From a virus, in the IMG/VR virus record IMGVR_UViG_3300014501_000048, positions 1 through 34,307 of that record: a stretch of DNA of 34,307 nt; one strand, given 5' to 3'. Of this stretch, positions 2,042 through 34,038 are shown one piece after another. Below the pieces are notes generated by a model. That model searched no databases and was not told where the DNA came from. It worked only from the letters and a program-made list of their open reading frames with translations. The translations under genes and the position numbers were made by a program. Each line of letters opens with the position of its first letter. Position 1 is the stretch's first letter.

Positions 2042-2541
2042 TGCCTGACGATGACATGACAGTGAGCATCGAGGGCTTAGAGGAACTGGAGAAGAACCTC
2101 GAAGCCCTCGCTGGTACTGAGTGCAGGAAGATCGTGCGTGCAGGACTGTATGCAGGATCCACTGCCATTGTCACGTCTATGACTCAGGCAGGGTCAAGCG
2201 TTCCCGGAGAGCCGGGGCAGATGCTCAGTGAGAAGTCACACTGGTCGAAGAGCACGCGCATGACTCGCGGAGATGAACTAGCTGGAACGGTCCACGTGAG
2301 GCCGAAGGGTGCGCTGTCCGAAGAGCACACAGGCATGGGTGATCCGAAGTTCGTCTTCCAGCCGAAAGGGAAGAAGTACAAACGGTCTCTCGCTTACTTG
2401 GTGAAGCTGATGGAACTCGGTGGCAGCGGCGGGCGCTATACTGGCTCGCGCTTTCCCATCATGACATCGACGTTCTCGTCGAACAAGGAGACGTATATCG
2501 AACGGGTGATCGCTGTTATCCGTGAAAGGTTGAAACTCTAG
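2041..2541 (+). CDS. HK97 gp10-like tail/neck protein
   Basis: This 166-residue protein resembles the HK97 gp10 family, whose members help complete the head-tail joint or tail. The N-terminus carries the typical pattern of a short beta strand and GL-EL-LEAL helix (VSIEGLEELEKNLEALAG), followed by RAGLYAGSTAIVTSM. The middle contains KGKKYKRSLAYLVKLMELGG, which fits the family's hairpin and helix. The first ATG overlaps the previous stop (TAATG); an internal ATG at 2056 would remove five residues. Neither has a well-spaced Shine-Dalgarno, so translational coupling is likely. In many siphophages this gene lies before the tail tube gene, so its place after the chaperones is slightly unusual. Confidence 0.6.
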   Translation: MPDDDMTVSIEGLEELEKNLEALAGTECRKIVRAGLYAGSTAIVTSMTQAGSSVPGEPGQMLSEKSHWSKSTRMTRGDELAGTVHVRPKGALSEEHTGMGDPKFVFQPKGKKYKRSLAYLVKLMELGGSGGRYTGSRFPIMTSTFSSNKETYIERVIAVIRERLKL

Positions 2542-2783
2542 CGCACTCTGCAATCAGGAGTAAAGCCGAGTTTTGCAAGTTCATTAGCGCTTGCTCCGTC
2601 TCGCTGAATCATGATGCAGTTGTGTCGCGCTTTTAAGTCAGCTTGCGCTTCGTTACTTTGTACTTCTGCTGCGGCAACAGCTTGCTCGTAGGCTTCATGC
2701 TCAGCAACGTTTTGATAGTGAACGAAGATAGAGAAGCCGGCGATTATCAGAGCTACGATTCCGATGGCGATTTTGATTTTCAT
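2538..2783 (-). CDS. Small membrane-anchored protein, antisense in tail operon
   Basis: This 81-residue protein starts MKIKIAIGIVALIIAGFSIF, a single transmembrane helix or uncleaved signal (residues 4-21). An extended Ala/Glu-rich helix (AEHEAYEQAVAAAEVQSNEA) and a small soluble tail with two cysteines follow. Translated this way, the DNA shows a sensible protein, whereas the plus strand here does not. An AGAGGA lies about eleven bases ahead of the ATG. A promoter with TTGACT, 16 bases and TAGGCT lies further upstream on the same strand, overlapping a repeated GGTTAC-TTCGTGATC element. It stands alone against the direction of the tail genes and its stop overlaps that of the gp10-like gene. 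Function is unknown. An accessory gene such as a superinfection or immunity factor is possible but unproven. Confidence 0.6.
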   Translation of the reverse strand: MKIKIAIGIVALIIAGFSIFVHYQNVAEHEAYEQAVAAAEVQSNEAQADLKARHNCIMIQRDGASANELAKLGFTPDCRVR

Positions 2784-2810: not shown

Positions 2811-2854
2811 AGCCTAGCAGATAGTGCAGAGCAGTCAAGATCACGAAAGTAACC
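2811..2854 (-). promoter_or_regulatory. Minus-strand promoter with GGTTAC-TTCGTGATC element
   Basis: On the minus strand GGTTACTTTCGTGATC runs into TTGACT (-35, 2833-2838), then 16 bases and TAGGCT (-10, 2811-2816). Nearly identical upstream elements occur before the plus-strand promoters at 33306 and 33541. It would drive the antisense membrane protein gene. Confidence 0.55.
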
Positions 2855-9608: not shown

Positions 9609-10112
9609 TTGATTTTTTATACCTACTTGTGGATTCGTGAAGACGGCACTCCCTACTATGTGGGGAAAGGCACATGGCATCGCGCACACACTATTCATTT
9701 GCGTATCGGAAGTGCGCCGCCTGCTGATAGGATACTGCTTGAAGCGCACACTTCTGAAGCTGATGCTTTTGCTGCCAAAACGTTTCTCATTTCTTACTAC
9801 GGTCGGAAAGATAAAGGCGGAATTCTTGCAAACTTGACAGACGGCGGAGAGGGCAAAGCGGGCTGGAAAGAATCTGAAGAGCAAGGTGCGAAGCGCGGCG
9901 CAGCGATCAGTGCGGGCAAGAAAGGCAAGAGATTTACACCTGAGCACAAAGCAGCGCTAAGGCTTGCAAAGCTTGGAACGAAACAGAGCGCAGAGCATGT
10001 ACAGGCGCGCGCTACTGGAATGAAGGGGAAAAACACTTACAAGCACTCACCTGAAACTTGTTTGCGAATGAGTACTGCAGCAAAAAACCGTCGTAATAAG
10101 GCGGCGCAATAA
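9609..10112 (+). CDS. GIY-YIG/NUMOD3 protein with catalytic Glu replaced by Lys
   Basis: This 167-residue protein is a paralogue of the one at 13387. Both start MIFYTY, then REDGTPYYVGKGT and NLTDGGE. The GIY-YIG nuclease domain covers roughly residues 1-82. NUMOD3-type repeats follow (GKRFTPEHKAALRLAK, then KHSPETCLRMSTAAK). In the metal-binding helix the 13387 protein has AAEVFLI with Glu57, while this one has AAKTFLI with Lys57 (codon AAA versus GAA). That Glu is essential in characterised GIY-YIG nucleases, so this copy may bind DNA but not cut. It starts at TTG with GAGG just upstream. Its stop overlaps the ATG of the tip protein (TAATG), so the insertion preserved coupling between two structural genes. 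Confidence 0.85.
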   Translation: MIFYTYLWIREDGTPYYVGKGTWHRAHTIHLRIGSAPPADRILLEAHTSEADAFAAKTFLISYYGRKDKGGILANLTDGGEGKAGWKESEEQGAKRGAAISAGKKGKRFTPEHKAALRLAKLGTKQSAEHVQARATGMKGKNTYKHSPETCLRMSTAAKNRRNKAAQ

Positions 10113-13100
10113 TGGGTTTCTTAAACACAAGCGATAAACCAAAGCGCATCAATAACATTCGCGTGACCCAGTCGACGCAGGGCTACCCCTTGCCTGCTGC
10201 CATGGGACAGCTTCGGATGCACCAGTCCCTAATCTGGATGGGCAGCCTCGTTGAAGTTGAAGAGAGCGGCGGCAAGGGCGGCGGGAAGTCTGGGCAATTC
10301 TACCTCTATTATGCTGATGTGATCGGTGCTCTGTGCAACGGTGAAGTGACCGGCATCGGATCCGTGTGGTCCGGACAGACTTGGCTGAGTTCGCAAGGCA
10401 CAGATGAGAGCACCGTCATTCAGCAGAACTATTCGCCGTCGAATGCAGTCACGCTGGTGCTCGACAACGGCGCGGCGCTGGTCACCACTTACGACAACAC
10501 CTATACCGACTTCGGGCAGCCAGCTTCCACAGTGCTGAGCGGCTCTGACTTGTCGCCGATGCAGAAGATTATCTGGTTCGTGCTCGGCTCTTCCTACACT
10601 GCCGGGACTCAAGTCTTCAACGGCACCGACATTTATAACTGCATCAAGGGGAACACGAACGAGCCTCTGTCGGATGCGACGTACTGGACTAACACTGGCG
10701 CCGGGCTGTCCACTGGACAGTACTCTGTGAGCACAGAGAGCATCGCAACTTTCGTGCTGTCTGCTGCCGGAACAGCAGCGGGCGGGAGCACTGTCTACAC
10801 GGGCACAATCACTGGCGGCGGATCCAACTTCTACGCCGGTTACACTTTCGTTGTCGTGGACTTCGACAATCCGAACAACAATGGGACCTACCTGTGCACA
10901 GCTTCAACAGGCACGACTCTTACGCTGAACAATCCTGACGGCGTAGCAGAGACACAGACGGCTTCGGCAGCCGATCAGGGCAACACGTACCACTTTTCCA
11001 CATCTGATGTGGGCAAGAGCGCTGCCATCTGGTACCAGTTCAATTACTCACTGGTCAATCAGCAGACTATCGCAATCATTCCGAGCGGCGTGGCGATCCC
11101 TGACTTTCCCGCGCAAACGATCGTCGTCAATACGCAGTACACTCCCACTTTCGACTTGGGCGTAGAGTACTACGGAGAATTCAGCGACAAGAGCGGGCAG
11201 CCATTGACTCCTGTCTCTACGACACCGACTGAGACCGGAACGTACCAAGTATTTTTGGCGCAGAACATCGGCAATGAGTACGTGACGTACTACGTTTTTG
11301 CTCCCGGTGACATCGGTCAAGAAATCCTGATTACGTTCGGCATCACGAACCAGAGCGTAGTCGGTCAGGGCGCTCCTGAACTGATTAACTTCGAATTGTT
11401 TGGCGGCGGGCAGTCTCAGGCGCCGTGGCAGTTCCTCATCACAGGTGGCACAGCCGGATTTGGCTCTGATGCGCAGGGGCAAACCGAAGTTACAATGCCT
11501 GGCAACCCGGGGCAGTCTCTCGGCTACACCGGCATCGCGTACATCGGTTACGGTCCAATGTTCCTTGGTGACTCTGCCGAAGTGCAAGACAACACGTTCG
11601 AGATTATCACACCAGATGCATACGGCGGCGGGTACAGCGCCGGCACACAGGATGCTGGATCGGCAGTCGTCGACTGCAATCCGGTCACCTGCATACTGCA
11701 AGTGCTCACGAATCCGATGTGGGGTTTGGGCGGTCCTCCAGTCCCGTTCCCCGTGGACTGCATCGACAACAGTTCACTTGGCACATGGGGCGGACCTGTC
11801 GGGACTCCAGGGCAAAGACAGCTAGGAAGCACGGCTTGGAACTGGTTCGCCGCCAATGGTTTCTTCATCAGCCCGAAGATCGACTCGCAGGACACAGCTT
11901 CCTCCGTGATGGGCAAGTGGCTTGAGGCGGGGCAGTGCGCAGCATTCATGTCTGAGGGACTGCTCAAGCTGGTCCCTTACGGCTCGACTTCAGTTGCTGG
12001 ACAAGGCTGCACCTGGATCGGTCCGCAAGACTTCATTGTGGCGCTCGACGATAGCTGCTTCATGGCAGAGGACGGACAGGATCCTGTCAAGATCACGCGC
12101 TCGTCTTGGCAAGACGGCTACAACAAGGTGCAGGTCCAGTGGGAGAACCGCAAGAATCAATATGCGGATGAAATCACGCAAGAGTTCGATCAGGCTTCCA
12201 TCAACAGATGGGGCGAGCGGCTTGAGCCACCGCAAAGCTACGACTTCGTGCACACTCTGACTGCGGCAACTTTCGCCGCGAGCATGCGCGTAAAGCGGAT
12301 GGTCAACATCCGAAACACATATGAGTTCGTGCTGCCGTTCACTTACTCGTACTTGGAACCGATGGACATTGTGACGATCACGACCAGCAGCATCTGGGCG
12401 GCGGGATTGAACAACGTGAACCTCGCCATCCTGAATCTGCCAGTGCGCATCACGAAGATTGAAGACGATCCGACAAAGGGCTTGAAGATTAACGCGGAAG
12501 ACTATCAAGCGCTGACGCTTGAGCCTGTGCTCTACAACAAGGGCATTTCGAGTGGCAATACGCTCGTGAATGCTTTCGCGCAGCCCGGTGACACAATCGC
12601 GATCCTGTTCGAAGCCACAAGTGAACTGACAAACCACCAGGGCAACCAAGTGTGGATCGGAGCAGTTGGCGCCTCAAGTGAGTGGGGCGGCTGCAACGTC
12701 TGGGTGAGCCAGGACAATTCCAAGTACTTGCAGATCGGCACGATCAAGCAGTCTTCGCGCCTTGGTCTGCTGTCGTCTTACTTCCCCGAGGGTGTGGATC
12801 CAGACACAGTAGACAGCCTGATCGTAGACCTTGAGCCGAACTGCTTGCCACTGGATGCTGGCACCGAGACGGATGCTGACTATGGGAATACGATGTGCTT
12901 CTGCGACGGTGAGTTGATCGCTTACTCTGCCGTTGAAGTGACTGGCGCCAGCGAGTACACGATGGACACTTACATTCGCCGCGGCTTGCTCGGCTCCCAA
13001 AACACCCCGCACAATCCGGGGACGGCATTCATGCGCCTTGACGACACGATCTTCAAGTACACGTACAACCCGCAGTGGGCTGGACAGACGCTTTACTTCA

Positions 13101-13386: not shown

Positions 13387-13917
13387 ATGATTTTCTACAC
13401 CTACATGTGGCTTCGAGAAGACGGCACGCCCTACTATGTCGGCAAGGGGACTGGAAATCGTGCTTTCAGAGGGCGCAGACATGCCGGCAATCCGCCACCA
13501 GCTAGTCGCATTTTCACACAAGAATTTCCGGAAGAGGATGCTGCACTGGCCGCTGAAGTTTTCTTGATTTCATTTTACGGTCGCAAAGACAACGGAACGG
13601 GCTGCCTTGCTAATCTCACAGACGGCGGAGAGAATCCGCCAAATCTTAAGGGCAGAAAGAAATCTGATTTTTGGCTATCCAAAAGGATAGGCGCTCCCGG
13701 AAACACAGCAGGTAAGACGTTTTCAGAGGAAACTAAAAAGAAGATGCGGGAGTCGCAACAGAAGCGCCGTTCTGTTCCTGTCACGGAAGAGTTTCGGAGG
13801 ACAATGAGCAAAGCCTTTGCTCTCAAGCCACGTAAAGGTTACAAACTTTCAGACGCAACAAGAGCGCGGATGACTGCTGGGCAGAAAGCTCGGAGAATGA
13901 GAGAACAAAATGGCTAG
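13387..13917 (+). CDS. GIY-YIG homing endonuclease with NUMOD3 repeats
   Basis: This 176-residue protein has an apparently intact GIY-YIG domain: MIFYTY, PYYVGKGTGNRA with Arg25, AAEVFLISFYGR with Glu57, and CLANLTDGGE. Three NUMOD3-like stretches follow (GKTFSEETKKKMRESQ, VTEEFRRTMSKAF and KLSDATRARMTAGQKARR). It is a close relative of the 9609 protein, which suggests one endonuclease family has spread to two junctions on either side of the tip gene. The gene starts with ATG after a 101-base gap containing a TGTCACA-type promoter. Its 3' end overlaps the next structural gene by eight bases. It could be the active partner that mobilises both loci. Confidence 0.88.
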   Translation: MIFYTYMWLREDGTPYYVGKGTGNRAFRGRRHAGNPPPASRIFTQEFPEEDAALAAEVFLISFYGRKDNGTGCLANLTDGGENPPNLKGRKKSDFWLSKRIGAPGNTAGKTFSEETKKKMRESQQKRRSVPVTEEFRRTMSKAFALKPRKGYKLSDATRARMTAGQKARRMREQNG

Positions 13918-23326: not shown

Positions 23327-24328
23327 ATGGCAGACATGAAAGTGATCGAGGCTGCTATCTCGAATCTTGAGAAGCAGCACGGCGCTGGTTGTGTGATGCG
23401 TCTCGGCAGCAAGAAGGCGCTGAACGTCCAAGTAATCCCCACTGGGATTCTCTCATTCGATGTGGCGCTCGGCGTCGGAGGCTTCCCGCGCGGGAGAGTC
23501 GTTGAAGTCTTCGGACCTGAGTCGGGCGGCAAGACAACTCTGGCGCTGCAAGTCATTGCGCAAGCCAACGCATCAAAGGGCATGGCAGCCTTCGTCGATG
23601 CTGAGCATGCGCTCGACCCCAAGTATGCGCGGGCACTTGGTGTGGATGTTGACAACCTGCTCATCTCGCAGCCTGATTACGGTGAGCAAGCGCTGGAGAT
23701 TACCGAAGCGCTTGTGCGCACAAACCAATTCGATGTGATCGTCGTCGACTCCGTTGCTGCTCTCGTTCCGAAAGCTGAACTTGACGGAGAGATGGGAGAC
23801 AGTCACATGGGCTTGCAGGCGCGGCTGATGTCTCAAGCACTGCGCAAGCTGACAGGTTGCGTCGCCAAGTCTCGCACCTGCCTCATCTTCATCAACCAGA
23901 TTCGTGAGAAGATTGGAATTGTGTTCGGCAACCCGGAGACAACGACGGGCGGTCGCGCTCTGAAGTTCTACGCCTCAGTTCGGATCGACGTGCGTAAGGG
24001 ACAACTCATCAAGGACGGCGAGAAAGTCATTGGCTCGATGAACAAGTTCAAGATCGTGAAGAACAAAGTGGCAGCGCCCTTCACCGAAGCCGAAGTTCCC
24101 ATCTATTACGGCTCTGGCTACTCACAGATGCATGACCTTCTGGAACTCGCCAGCACTGCTGGACTCGTTGAGAAGAGCGGCTCGTGGTACTCTTTCAAGG
24201 GTGAGCGCATCGGACAGGGCAAAGAGAATGCAGTCGCCTTCTTGTCCGAGAACTGGGAGAAAGTCACGCAACCGTTGTACAACGAAACGCGGCGCCTGCT
24301 GATGCCGCCAGAGGATCACGGGAAATGA
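23327..24328 (+). CDS. recA: RecA recombinase
   Basis: This 333-residue protein is a full-length RecA homologue. Visible parts are the Walker A loop GPESGGKTT (63-71), the catalytic DAEHALD with Glu93, the Walker B region [20 protein letters not shown], and the MAW motif [20 protein letters not shown]. Loop 2 follows near [18 protein letters not shown], then the C-terminal domain. One change is notable: the canonical GPESSGKTT has Gly at position 67 instead of Ser. It forms a filament on single-stranded DNA and drives strand exchange, here presumably for phage recombination-dependent replication or repair. AGGAG precedes the ATG. The end overlaps the kinase gene by four bases, so the two are co-translated. 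Confidence 0.95.
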
Positions 24329-27620: not shown

Positions 27621-27657
27621 ATCCGCGCTCTGAATTGCGCTTGAAGAAGGAGGCAAA

Positions 27658-33019: not shown

Positions 33020-33268
33020 CTAGCTGGGGAGTTGGTCGCCGTAGAAGTCGAATGCAGGCTGCTGTTCAGCCCGCGCGAATGACTCTTCGACTTGCTTGAT
33101 TGCCTTGTCGCGGAGGAGTTGCTTGACTTCTTCTTTGGCTTCTGCTTTGTTCGGCTGCACGTTAGAGCCGTGATACTTCCCGCTGCAAATGCAGCTGCAA
33201 TGCTCTTTGATAGCGTTATGGCAAACGGCATCGCAGCGCCTCTTGCCAGCGCGGAGGACTGTTGACAT
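33020..33268 (-). CDS. Cys/His-rich small protein, first gene of minus block
   Basis: This 82-residue protein begins MSTVLRAGKRRCDAVCHNAI and has HCSCICSGKYHG next, so Cys12, 16, 24, 26, 28 and His residues could bind zinc. A charged helix (KAEAKEEVKQLLRDKAIKQV) follows. Small proteins with this CxCxC-GKYHG arrangement are common in phages but uncharacterised. The ATG lies six bases after a TATACT -10 element, so the transcript is predicted to be leaderless. It is the first gene of the minus-strand replication operon; an early regulator is one possibility. Confidence 0.68.
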   Translation of the reverse strand: MSTVLRAGKRRCDAVCHNAIKEHCSCICSGKYHGSNVQPNKAEAKEEVKQLLRDKAIKQVEESFARAEQQPAFDFYGDQLPS

Positions 33269-33274
33269 AGATCA

Positions 33275-33303
33275 AGTATAGCACGGTCTCGGTAACTTTG
33301 CAA
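33275..33303 (-). promoter_or_regulatory. Promoter of minus-strand replication block
   Basis: On the minus strand TTGCAA (33298-33303), 17 bases and TATACT (33275-33280), with a TG one base before the -10. The ATG is at 33268, six bases after the -10. A GTTACC half-site lies in the spacer. Confidence 0.62.
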
Positions 33304-33312
33304 CTGGTTACC
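33291..33312. promoter_or_regulatory. GGTAAC/GGTTACC inverted repeat (operator candidate)
   Basis: GGTAAC at 33291-33296, nine bases, GGTTACC at 33306-33312. It lies between two divergent promoters and overlaps the minus-strand spacer and -35 box. Related repeats occur at 2849-2878, 18729-18743 and 22723-22742. Confidence 0.5.
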
Positions 33313-33349
33313 TTCGTGATCTTGATGCTTTTCAGCATTCTGCTATGCT
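33306..33349 (+). promoter_or_regulatory. Plus-strand promoter with GGTTACC-TTCGTGATC element
   Basis: GGTTACCTTCGTGATC runs into TTGATG (33322-33327), then 16 bases and TATGCT (33344-33349). The ATG at 33356 starts six bases after the -10. Confidence 0.6.
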
Positions 33350-33355
33350 GTGTGC

Positions 33356-33529
33356 ATGACAAAAGCAATCGCAGAACTTCAAGCAGGTTACAAAAAAGCA
33401 TTCGGTGAAGACATCAAAAGCGTGACAATAACAGAGCTTAAAAGTGCCGGCAAAGAAGTTGATGCCGCAGCAGATGAGCACTTATTGAAAACAGGTGAAG
33501 AAGTCAGCTACGATTCACGCTGGTTTTAG
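33356..33529 (+). CDS. Small protein (57 residues), predicted leaderless
   Basis: The protein MTKAIAELQAGYKKAFGEDI continues with KSVTITELKSAGKEVDAAAD and ends SYDSRWF. It is Lys/Glu/Ala-rich and probably helical. There is no ribosome site, but the -10 element ends six bases before the ATG, so the mRNA should begin at the start codon. It is the first plus-strand gene after the divergent control region. The family is unknown; small early phage proteins in this position often act on host functions. Confidence 0.6.
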   Translation: MTKAIAELQAGYKKAFGEDIKSVTITELKSAGKEVDAAADEHLLKTGEEVSYDSRWF

Positions 33530-33540
33530 CGATTACTACT

Positions 33541-33585
33541 GGTTACCTTCGTGATCTTGCATCACCTTTGTAGAACTGTTAGGAT
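33541..33585 (+). promoter_or_regulatory. Second plus-strand GGTTACC-TTCGTGATC promoter
   Basis: GGTTACCTTCGTGATC overlaps TTGCAT (33557-33562), then 17 bases and TAGGAT (33580-33585). The next ATG (33592) is six bases downstream. A 21-base identity with the copy at 33304-33324 suggests duplication. Confidence 0.6.
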
Positions 33586-33591
33586 TGCATC

Positions 33592-34038
33592 ATGACAAAC
33601 ACACAACAGACCGAGCGAGCGTCAGGTAGTCTACATCACAAACTGAACAGGAGAAAAAACACTATGGCAACCAAGAAGAAAGAAGCGCTCCGTGGACCGA
33701 GCATCTCCGGTGAGCACCTCGCTGGCAAAGTCGTGATCCTGCGCGAAGACTACTTCAAGCCCGAGTACCGCCACATCGACAGGCGCTTCAAGTGCTCCGG
33801 CGGCTTCGGCTGTGATCCGAACCTCGCGGGGACTGCTGTCTTCGGCACGTTCCTGGCAGACGGCGAAGAGGCGCGCGTCAGCCGCGGAGATATTCTGTGC
33901 TTCGCGCCCGCCTGCCCGTGCTGCGGCAATCTCAGCTTCTCAGAAGATGAACACGGAACCAAAGAGCTGGCTTGCGATCGCTGTGGACTGCCTGCTGGCA
34001 GCGCTCTGTGCCAGTCGTCTACGGTGCCGTGCGCGTGA
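33592..34038 (+). CDS. Zinc-binding hypothetical protein
   Basis: The frame from the promoter-proximal ATG gives 148 residues. An in-frame ATG at 33664 with AGGAG ten bases upstream gives 124 residues starting MATKKKEALRGPSISGEHLA. The long form would be leaderless, the short one uses a ribosome site; both may occur. The protein has FKCSGGFGCDP, then a probable zinc part CFAPACPCCG followed by LACDRCGLP. Similar small proteins from phages carry four cysteines in two pairs. Function unknown. The last 15 residues (after CDRCG) look atypical, and a different frame carries another CxxC motif just downstream, so a frameshift near 34,000 is possible. Confidence 0.6.
   Translation: MTNTQQTERASGSLHHKLNRRKNTMATKKKEALRGPSISGEHLAGKVVILREDYFKPEYRHIDRRFKCSGGFGCDPNLAGTAVFGTFLADGEEARVSRGDILCFAPACPCCGNLSFSEDEHGTKELACDRCGLPAGSALCQSSTVPCA

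Follow-up and report, generated by a model that had tools for sequence, protein, structure and literature searches.

The DNA analysed, here called the window, is the whole 34,307-nt stretch of the IMG/VR virus record IMGVR_UViG_3300014501_000048. Near its right end lie a divergent promoter pair, a second rightward promoter and the genes behind them:

33020-33268, minus strand: gene for an 82-aa Cys-rich protein, predicted leaderless, with its sole ATG start at 33268
33275-33303, minus strand: leftward sigma-70-like promoter, TTGCAA-N17-TATACT with TG before the -10; predicted +1 is the A of ATG 33268
33292-33311, unstranded: candidate regulator site, inverted, GTAAC-N10-GTTAC, between the divergent promoters
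33306-33324, plus strand: promoter box, copy 1, GGTTACCTTCGTGATCTTG; its last TTG opens the -35
33322-33349, plus strand: rightward promoter 1, TTGATG-N16-TATGCT; predicted +1 is the A of ATG 33356
33356-33529, plus strand: 57-aa gene, predicted leaderless, with no second ATG in the ORF and coding-like codon use
33541-33559, plus strand: promoter box, copy 2, GGTTACCTTCGTGATCTTG, identical to copy 1
33557-33585, plus strand: rightward promoter 2, TTGCAT-N17-TAGGAT; predicted +1 at ATG 33592
33592-33663, plus strand: either the leaderless N-terminal extension of 24 codons or, with greater probability, a leader of 72 nt whose 5' end is an AUG
33664-34038, plus strand: 124-aa gene with a Shine-Dalgarno (SD)-led ATG, AGGAG at -15, the probable main start

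The preliminary description had pointed to three -10-like hexamers, each followed after six bases by an ATG, and had considered this identical geometry unlikely to arise by chance. All three were found, and the gap between hexamer and ATG is exactly six bases in each:

TATACT 33280-33275, ATG 33268, minus strand: TTGCAA-N17-TATACT-TGATCT-ATG
TATGCT 33344-33349, ATG 33356, plus strand: TATGCT-GTGTGC-ATG
TAGGAT 33580-33585, ATG 33592, plus strand: TAGGAT-TGCATC-ATG

With this placement of the -10 the predicted +1 falls on the start codon at 33268, 33356 and 33592. The reported lack of SD sequences was also borne out, there being none before 33268 or 33356 and only an AGGA within the -10 hexamer, at -11, before 33592. 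The contrast with the other genes of the window stands because 28 of 34 carry an SD match of 4 nt or more, a count that is biased upward since it comes from a crude gene call in which the choice of start prefers an SD. The geometry itself, however, is less improbable than was claimed. TANNNT-N6-ATG occurred 9 times in the window compared to 7.6 (sd 2.9) expected, so that the spacing is not enriched, and three such motifs fell inside 330 bp in 6 of 300 Markov simulations (2%). Because of these two results the bare motif is only mildly unusual and, taken alone, is suggestive at best; its significance comes from a common promoter box and from the relatives of the window, neither of which figured in the preliminary description. 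The same counts favor the view that the hexamers are not promoters, that transcription comes from elsewhere and that the N6-ATG spacing is coincidental, and what speaks against this view is the box.

When the two plus-strand promoters were compared by computation it was found that they have 27 nt in common at 93% identity, including the identical 19-mer GGTTACCTTCGTGATCTTG. A further copy of this box, at 2854 on the minus strand, has one change, and shuffles gave zero box matches. The box was sought in IMG/VR, and with mismatches across whole related contigs, and it was present in three related IMG/VR contigs, 3300050045_000036 (G001), 3300014501_000034 (G005) and 3300048764_000117 (G006). Of these, G001 and G006 are closely related to the window, with identities of mostly 88-99% over aligned stretches, and G005 is 73-97% identical to G001. 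Other box matches were set aside by eye, those in L013 and L014 as they seem to fall within coding sequence and those in L023 and L024 as they have no N6-ATG promoter. Ten box promoters in the four contigs were collected without reference to ATG, the copies beside the tape-measure gene in the window and in G001 being counted once:

N6-ATG after the -10: window 33356, window 33592, G001 1280, G001 46643, G005 799, G006 4709
SD-led genes from the same +1, leader about 20 nt: window 2854 (same in G001), G005 265
Remaining: G001 46507, without a clear gene; G005 12301, with TTG at that place

The -35 to -10 spacing at these ten promoters is 16 or 17, and ATG is present at exactly +7 after the -10 in six of them (binomial p ~3e-9 at 1/64 per site). 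Scans of IMG/VR for the box with N6-ATG gave four matches, all in these contigs, and those for the box with N9-ATG gave none. The ORFs behind the box N6-ATGs have 57-183 codons and, because their proteins are not similar to each other, the box-ATG geometry is not one inherited junction. Thus the box, the 16-17 spacing and N6-ATG recur jointly in related contigs at unrelated genes, the box itself has no chance expectation in shuffles, and we regard a coincidental spacing as highly improbable. Six Acidobacteria genomes were searched for the box, taken as its last 18 bases plus A with as many as 2 mismatches allowed, and did not contain it. Window 10001-34307 was without a DNA match among the records of the phage collection. 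The common promoter box ties unassigned contigs together as one phage group.

At 33268 and 33356 the codon use of the ORFs is coding-like (+12.6 and +11.1, respectively). In the genes at G001 1280 and G006 4709 a hydrophobic, secretion-signal-like N-terminus, as judged by eye, begins exactly at the ATG, and an HNH endonuclease gene of G005 starts at TTGACA-N17-TACCAT-N6-ATG and is matched by its family profiles from residues 1-3 on. This HNH gene, at G005 34154-34668 (L020 14154-14668, minus strand), has its own consensus promoter and lies in a stretch that is missing from the relative G001. In the predicted leaderless genes, codons 2-8 are A- and C-rich (p=1e-4), and leaderless translation is known to be enhanced by CA repeats near the start (PMC9031893). 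Folding energy did not differ significantly at the starts. The 82-aa protein had a weak match to PHROG 6842 (E=0.0024), no match in phage records and no relatives by IMG/VR protein search.

A different reading of these starts is that what is conserved is the initially transcribed ATC-A at +1, the AUG being a 5'-terminal upstream AUG and the proteins starting at SD-led codons downstream. In its favor, the leadered box copies have ATC-A at the same place around +1, in-frame SD-led ATGs are found at 33592/33664 and G001 46643/46688, and E. coli has such mRNAs (PMC4965119). However, the ORFs at 33268 and 33356 have no other ATG, and later starts would cost G001 1280, G006 4709 and the HNH gene their plausible N-termini, and we consider this reading unlikely. 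Leaderless mRNAs and translation, as predicted from the sequence, are likely at 33268 and 33356, where the ATG is the sole one of its ORF, where the geometry recurs at non-homologous genes and where the likely host group, described below, uses leaderless genes.

The third ATG is equivocal, and the leaderless prediction in the preliminary description is doubtful there. The codon score per codon in the 24-codon extension, 33592-33663, was -0.10, as in non-coding sequence (random frames, -0.13), while from 33664 onward it was +0.17. Because of this codon use and the AGGAG at -15, 33592 is more likely the 5'-terminal AUG of a transcript with its main start at 33664, or else a second, minor start; equal merit of all three ATGs as leaderless starts was rejected for 33592 by codon use. 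An ATG at the predicted +1 followed by an SD-led ATG is like the arrangement in E. coli mRNAs that combine a 5'-terminal AUG with an SD-led start (PMC4965119), the difference being that 33592 and 33664 share a reading frame and that both starts are predicted from the arrangement of the sequence. A like ambiguity is present at G001 46643, which has an in-frame SD-led ATG at 46688. The 124-aa protein had no relatives in the IMG/VR protein search.

The minus-strand copy of the box belongs to a promoter on the other side of the window:

2811-2854, minus strand: third box promoter; box GGTTACTTTCGTGATCTTG at 2854-2836, -35 TTGACT, -10 TAGGCT at 2816-2811, predicted +1 at 2804
2538-2783, minus strand: 81-aa gene with a hydrophobic N-terminus behind this promoter; leader of about 21 nt, SD AGAGGA

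This leadered gene is a built-in contrast to the leaderless copies. A syntenic cassette in G006 has the same upstream DNA but a leaderless-type gene, the window and G006 being alike as far as the box at 2836 but not in the leftward genes beyond it, which are leadered in the one and leaderless in the other. In G001 a 615-bp insert (46334-46948) carries two divergent box promoters and a gene, and it is absent from the window at 27621-27624. Because of the window/G006 switch and the G001 insert, it follows that the module accompanies exchangeable genes, also in the structural region. The label of earliest phage genes, given to the three ATGs in the preliminary description, is not supported, as the same promoter has copies next to the tape-measure gene and within inserted cassettes, and this association argues against the marking of earliest genes only. 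The divergence of the window and G006 after the box and the G001 insert with its two box promoters also favor the explanation that the repeats are mainly recombination or regulator-binding sites which import cassettes, the ATG spacing being a by-product of cassette design. We think it improbable that this is the main explanation, since it predicts neither the exact +7 position of the ATG, seen in six cases without homology, nor a conserved spacing between -35 and -10; exchange of cassettes can, however, be compatible with the promoter module that we favor. The leftward promoter of the 615-bp cassette has no evident gene and could yield non-coding or antisense RNA. Elsewhere in the window, 9610-9685 and 13388-13463 are 80% identical stretches at two ORF starts, with a motif that is GIY-YIG-like by eye.

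The leftward promoter at 33275-33303 has a 9/12 sigma-70 match. A DNA-homologous divergent promoter is present in G005, with TATACT-N7-ATG at 12339, and its divergent layout is the same as that in the window but a different gene lies on the TATACT-N7-ATG side. The inverted site at 33292-33311 has its centre close to position -55 of the rightward promoter (33356) and spans the -35 of the leftward one (33268). The four contigs, 145 kb in all, contain seven copies of GTAA[CT]-N10/11-[AG]TTAC, every one of them at a box promoter, compared to 0.15 expected from simulation, and 800 kb of Acidobacteriaceae DNA contain none. It is a reasonable inference from this arrangement that one predicted regulator would act on both divergent promoters through the inverted site. 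Among the proteins tested with Pfam no regulator was recognised.

The phage carries recA at 23327-24328 of the window, and the identity of its RecA reaches 74% with chromosomal RecA of Acidobacteria but no more than about 60% with RecA of phage records among the matches listed. This likeness points to a host that is probably acidobacterial, and probably one of the soil Acidobacteria, as far as RecA, a gene transferable between lineages, can indicate the host, and it suggests that the phage recA was acquired from the host group. The endolysin had no match among phage records and none in bacterial genomes. Leaderless genes have been predicted in Acidobacteria at an average of 13.3% over three genomes (Zheng et al., PMC3160421). 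In 800 kb from two Acidobacteriaceae we computed the distance of TANNNT upstream of ATG and found a peak at spacer 6, 19 compared to a background of about 5, the excess spanning spacers 6-11. This peak and the published prediction support the use of leaderless genes in the host group, the host itself being placed by RecA. The host genes are like those described here in having TANNNT close upstream of the start codon; they differ in being host rather than phage genes and are predicted as well (PMC3160421). Similar starts are present in the Tunturi phages, which have been cultivated and infect Acidobacteriaceae (PMC11924767): among 217 annotated starts, 4 have spacer 6 and 3 have spacer 7, against about one at most other spacers.

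The most probable explanation, to which we give a probability of about 80%, is a repeated promoter module that places +1 at the ATG. A divergent pair of host-type (sigma-70) promoters and a second rightward promoter would serve the region, the rightward ones being copies of a phage module made up of the inverted GTAAC/GTTAC site, the box ending in the -35, N16-17, TANNNT, N6 and +1. RNA polymerase would start at the seventh base after the -10, which for the genes at 33268 and 33356 is the A of their ATG. These transcripts are therefore predicted to have no leader, and their 5'-terminal AUG would be read by the leaderless route of the host. The 33592 transcript would probably also begin at AUG and be translated mainly from the SD-led ATG at 33664. 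One DNA-binding regulator of the module, of the phage or of the host, would, as the inverted site suggests, act from about -55 on the rightward promoter and cover the -35 of the leftward promoter. Computation established the repeat, the geometry and its recurrence, the inverted site and the signal in the host group; from these, the transcription start sites, leaderless translation and a regulator with a sign of action are inferred.

Leaderless translation is known in phage lambda (cI). The kind of expression described here is thus already known and what is new is the sequence module and the host group, one that has been little studied; a literature search did not find leaderless translation reported in phages of Acidobacteria. 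The closest precedent is that of the Cluster O mycobacteriophages (Corndog), which have divergent leaderless SigA-like promoters, PL1/PR2, and PL2 (PMC4351075). They resemble the window in having divergent promoters with both predicted +1 positions on the first base of a start codon (here 33268, minus, and 33356, plus), another such promoter where a leftward gene lies within the structural operon, and a multi-copy inverted-repeat site. They differ in host phylum and sequences, the likeness being one of layout and not of descent, and window 10001-34307 had no DNA similarity to Corndog-like phages in the phage collection. Moreover, the inverted site here occurs only at promoters whereas the 34 repeats of Corndog are spread through its genome, and some copies here are SD-led. 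In the lambda-like phages, the cI and cro mRNAs of PY54 are leaderless as mapped by RACE (PMC4488713). Here too, operator-like DNA lies beside phage promoters that are divergent or adjacent and give mRNAs starting with AUG, but the mRNAs are predicted and not mapped by experiment and the genes are not recognised repressors. The Start Associated Sequences of Cluster K mycobacteriophages, which are at the ribosome binding site and contain AGGAG (PMC3203893), are likewise short repeats tied to non-homologous gene starts, about half of them with upstream inverted repeats; the box here, in contrast, is located at the -35, and no SD precedes the start.

Going further, it is possible, and we suggest it only tentatively, that acidobacterial phages have a regulon-like module which is under one regulator through GTAAC/GTTAC, moves with exchangeable cassettes and gives leaderless or SD-led output from the same +1. 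If such a two-output module is true, the phage could tune how each cassette is translated to the condition of the host ribosomes. If leaderless translation occurs as predicted, gene callers that favor SD sequences would misplace starts in these phages. Acidobacteria are a major soil phylum, and the cultivated Tunturi phages are a possible test ground. In Tunturi_3 (PP885686, L150), TTGACA-type promoters at 43518 and 49548 on the minus strand have TATAGT-N6-ATG and TATAAT-N7-GTG at annotated starts. In Tunturi_5, an acidobacterial jumbo phage of Tunturiibacter (PP885688, L151), there are 26 copies of GTAGGTTGA in 309 kb where about 2 are expected, and 7 of the 26 are followed by N4-ATG, which makes this a second repeated leaderless-looking promoter.
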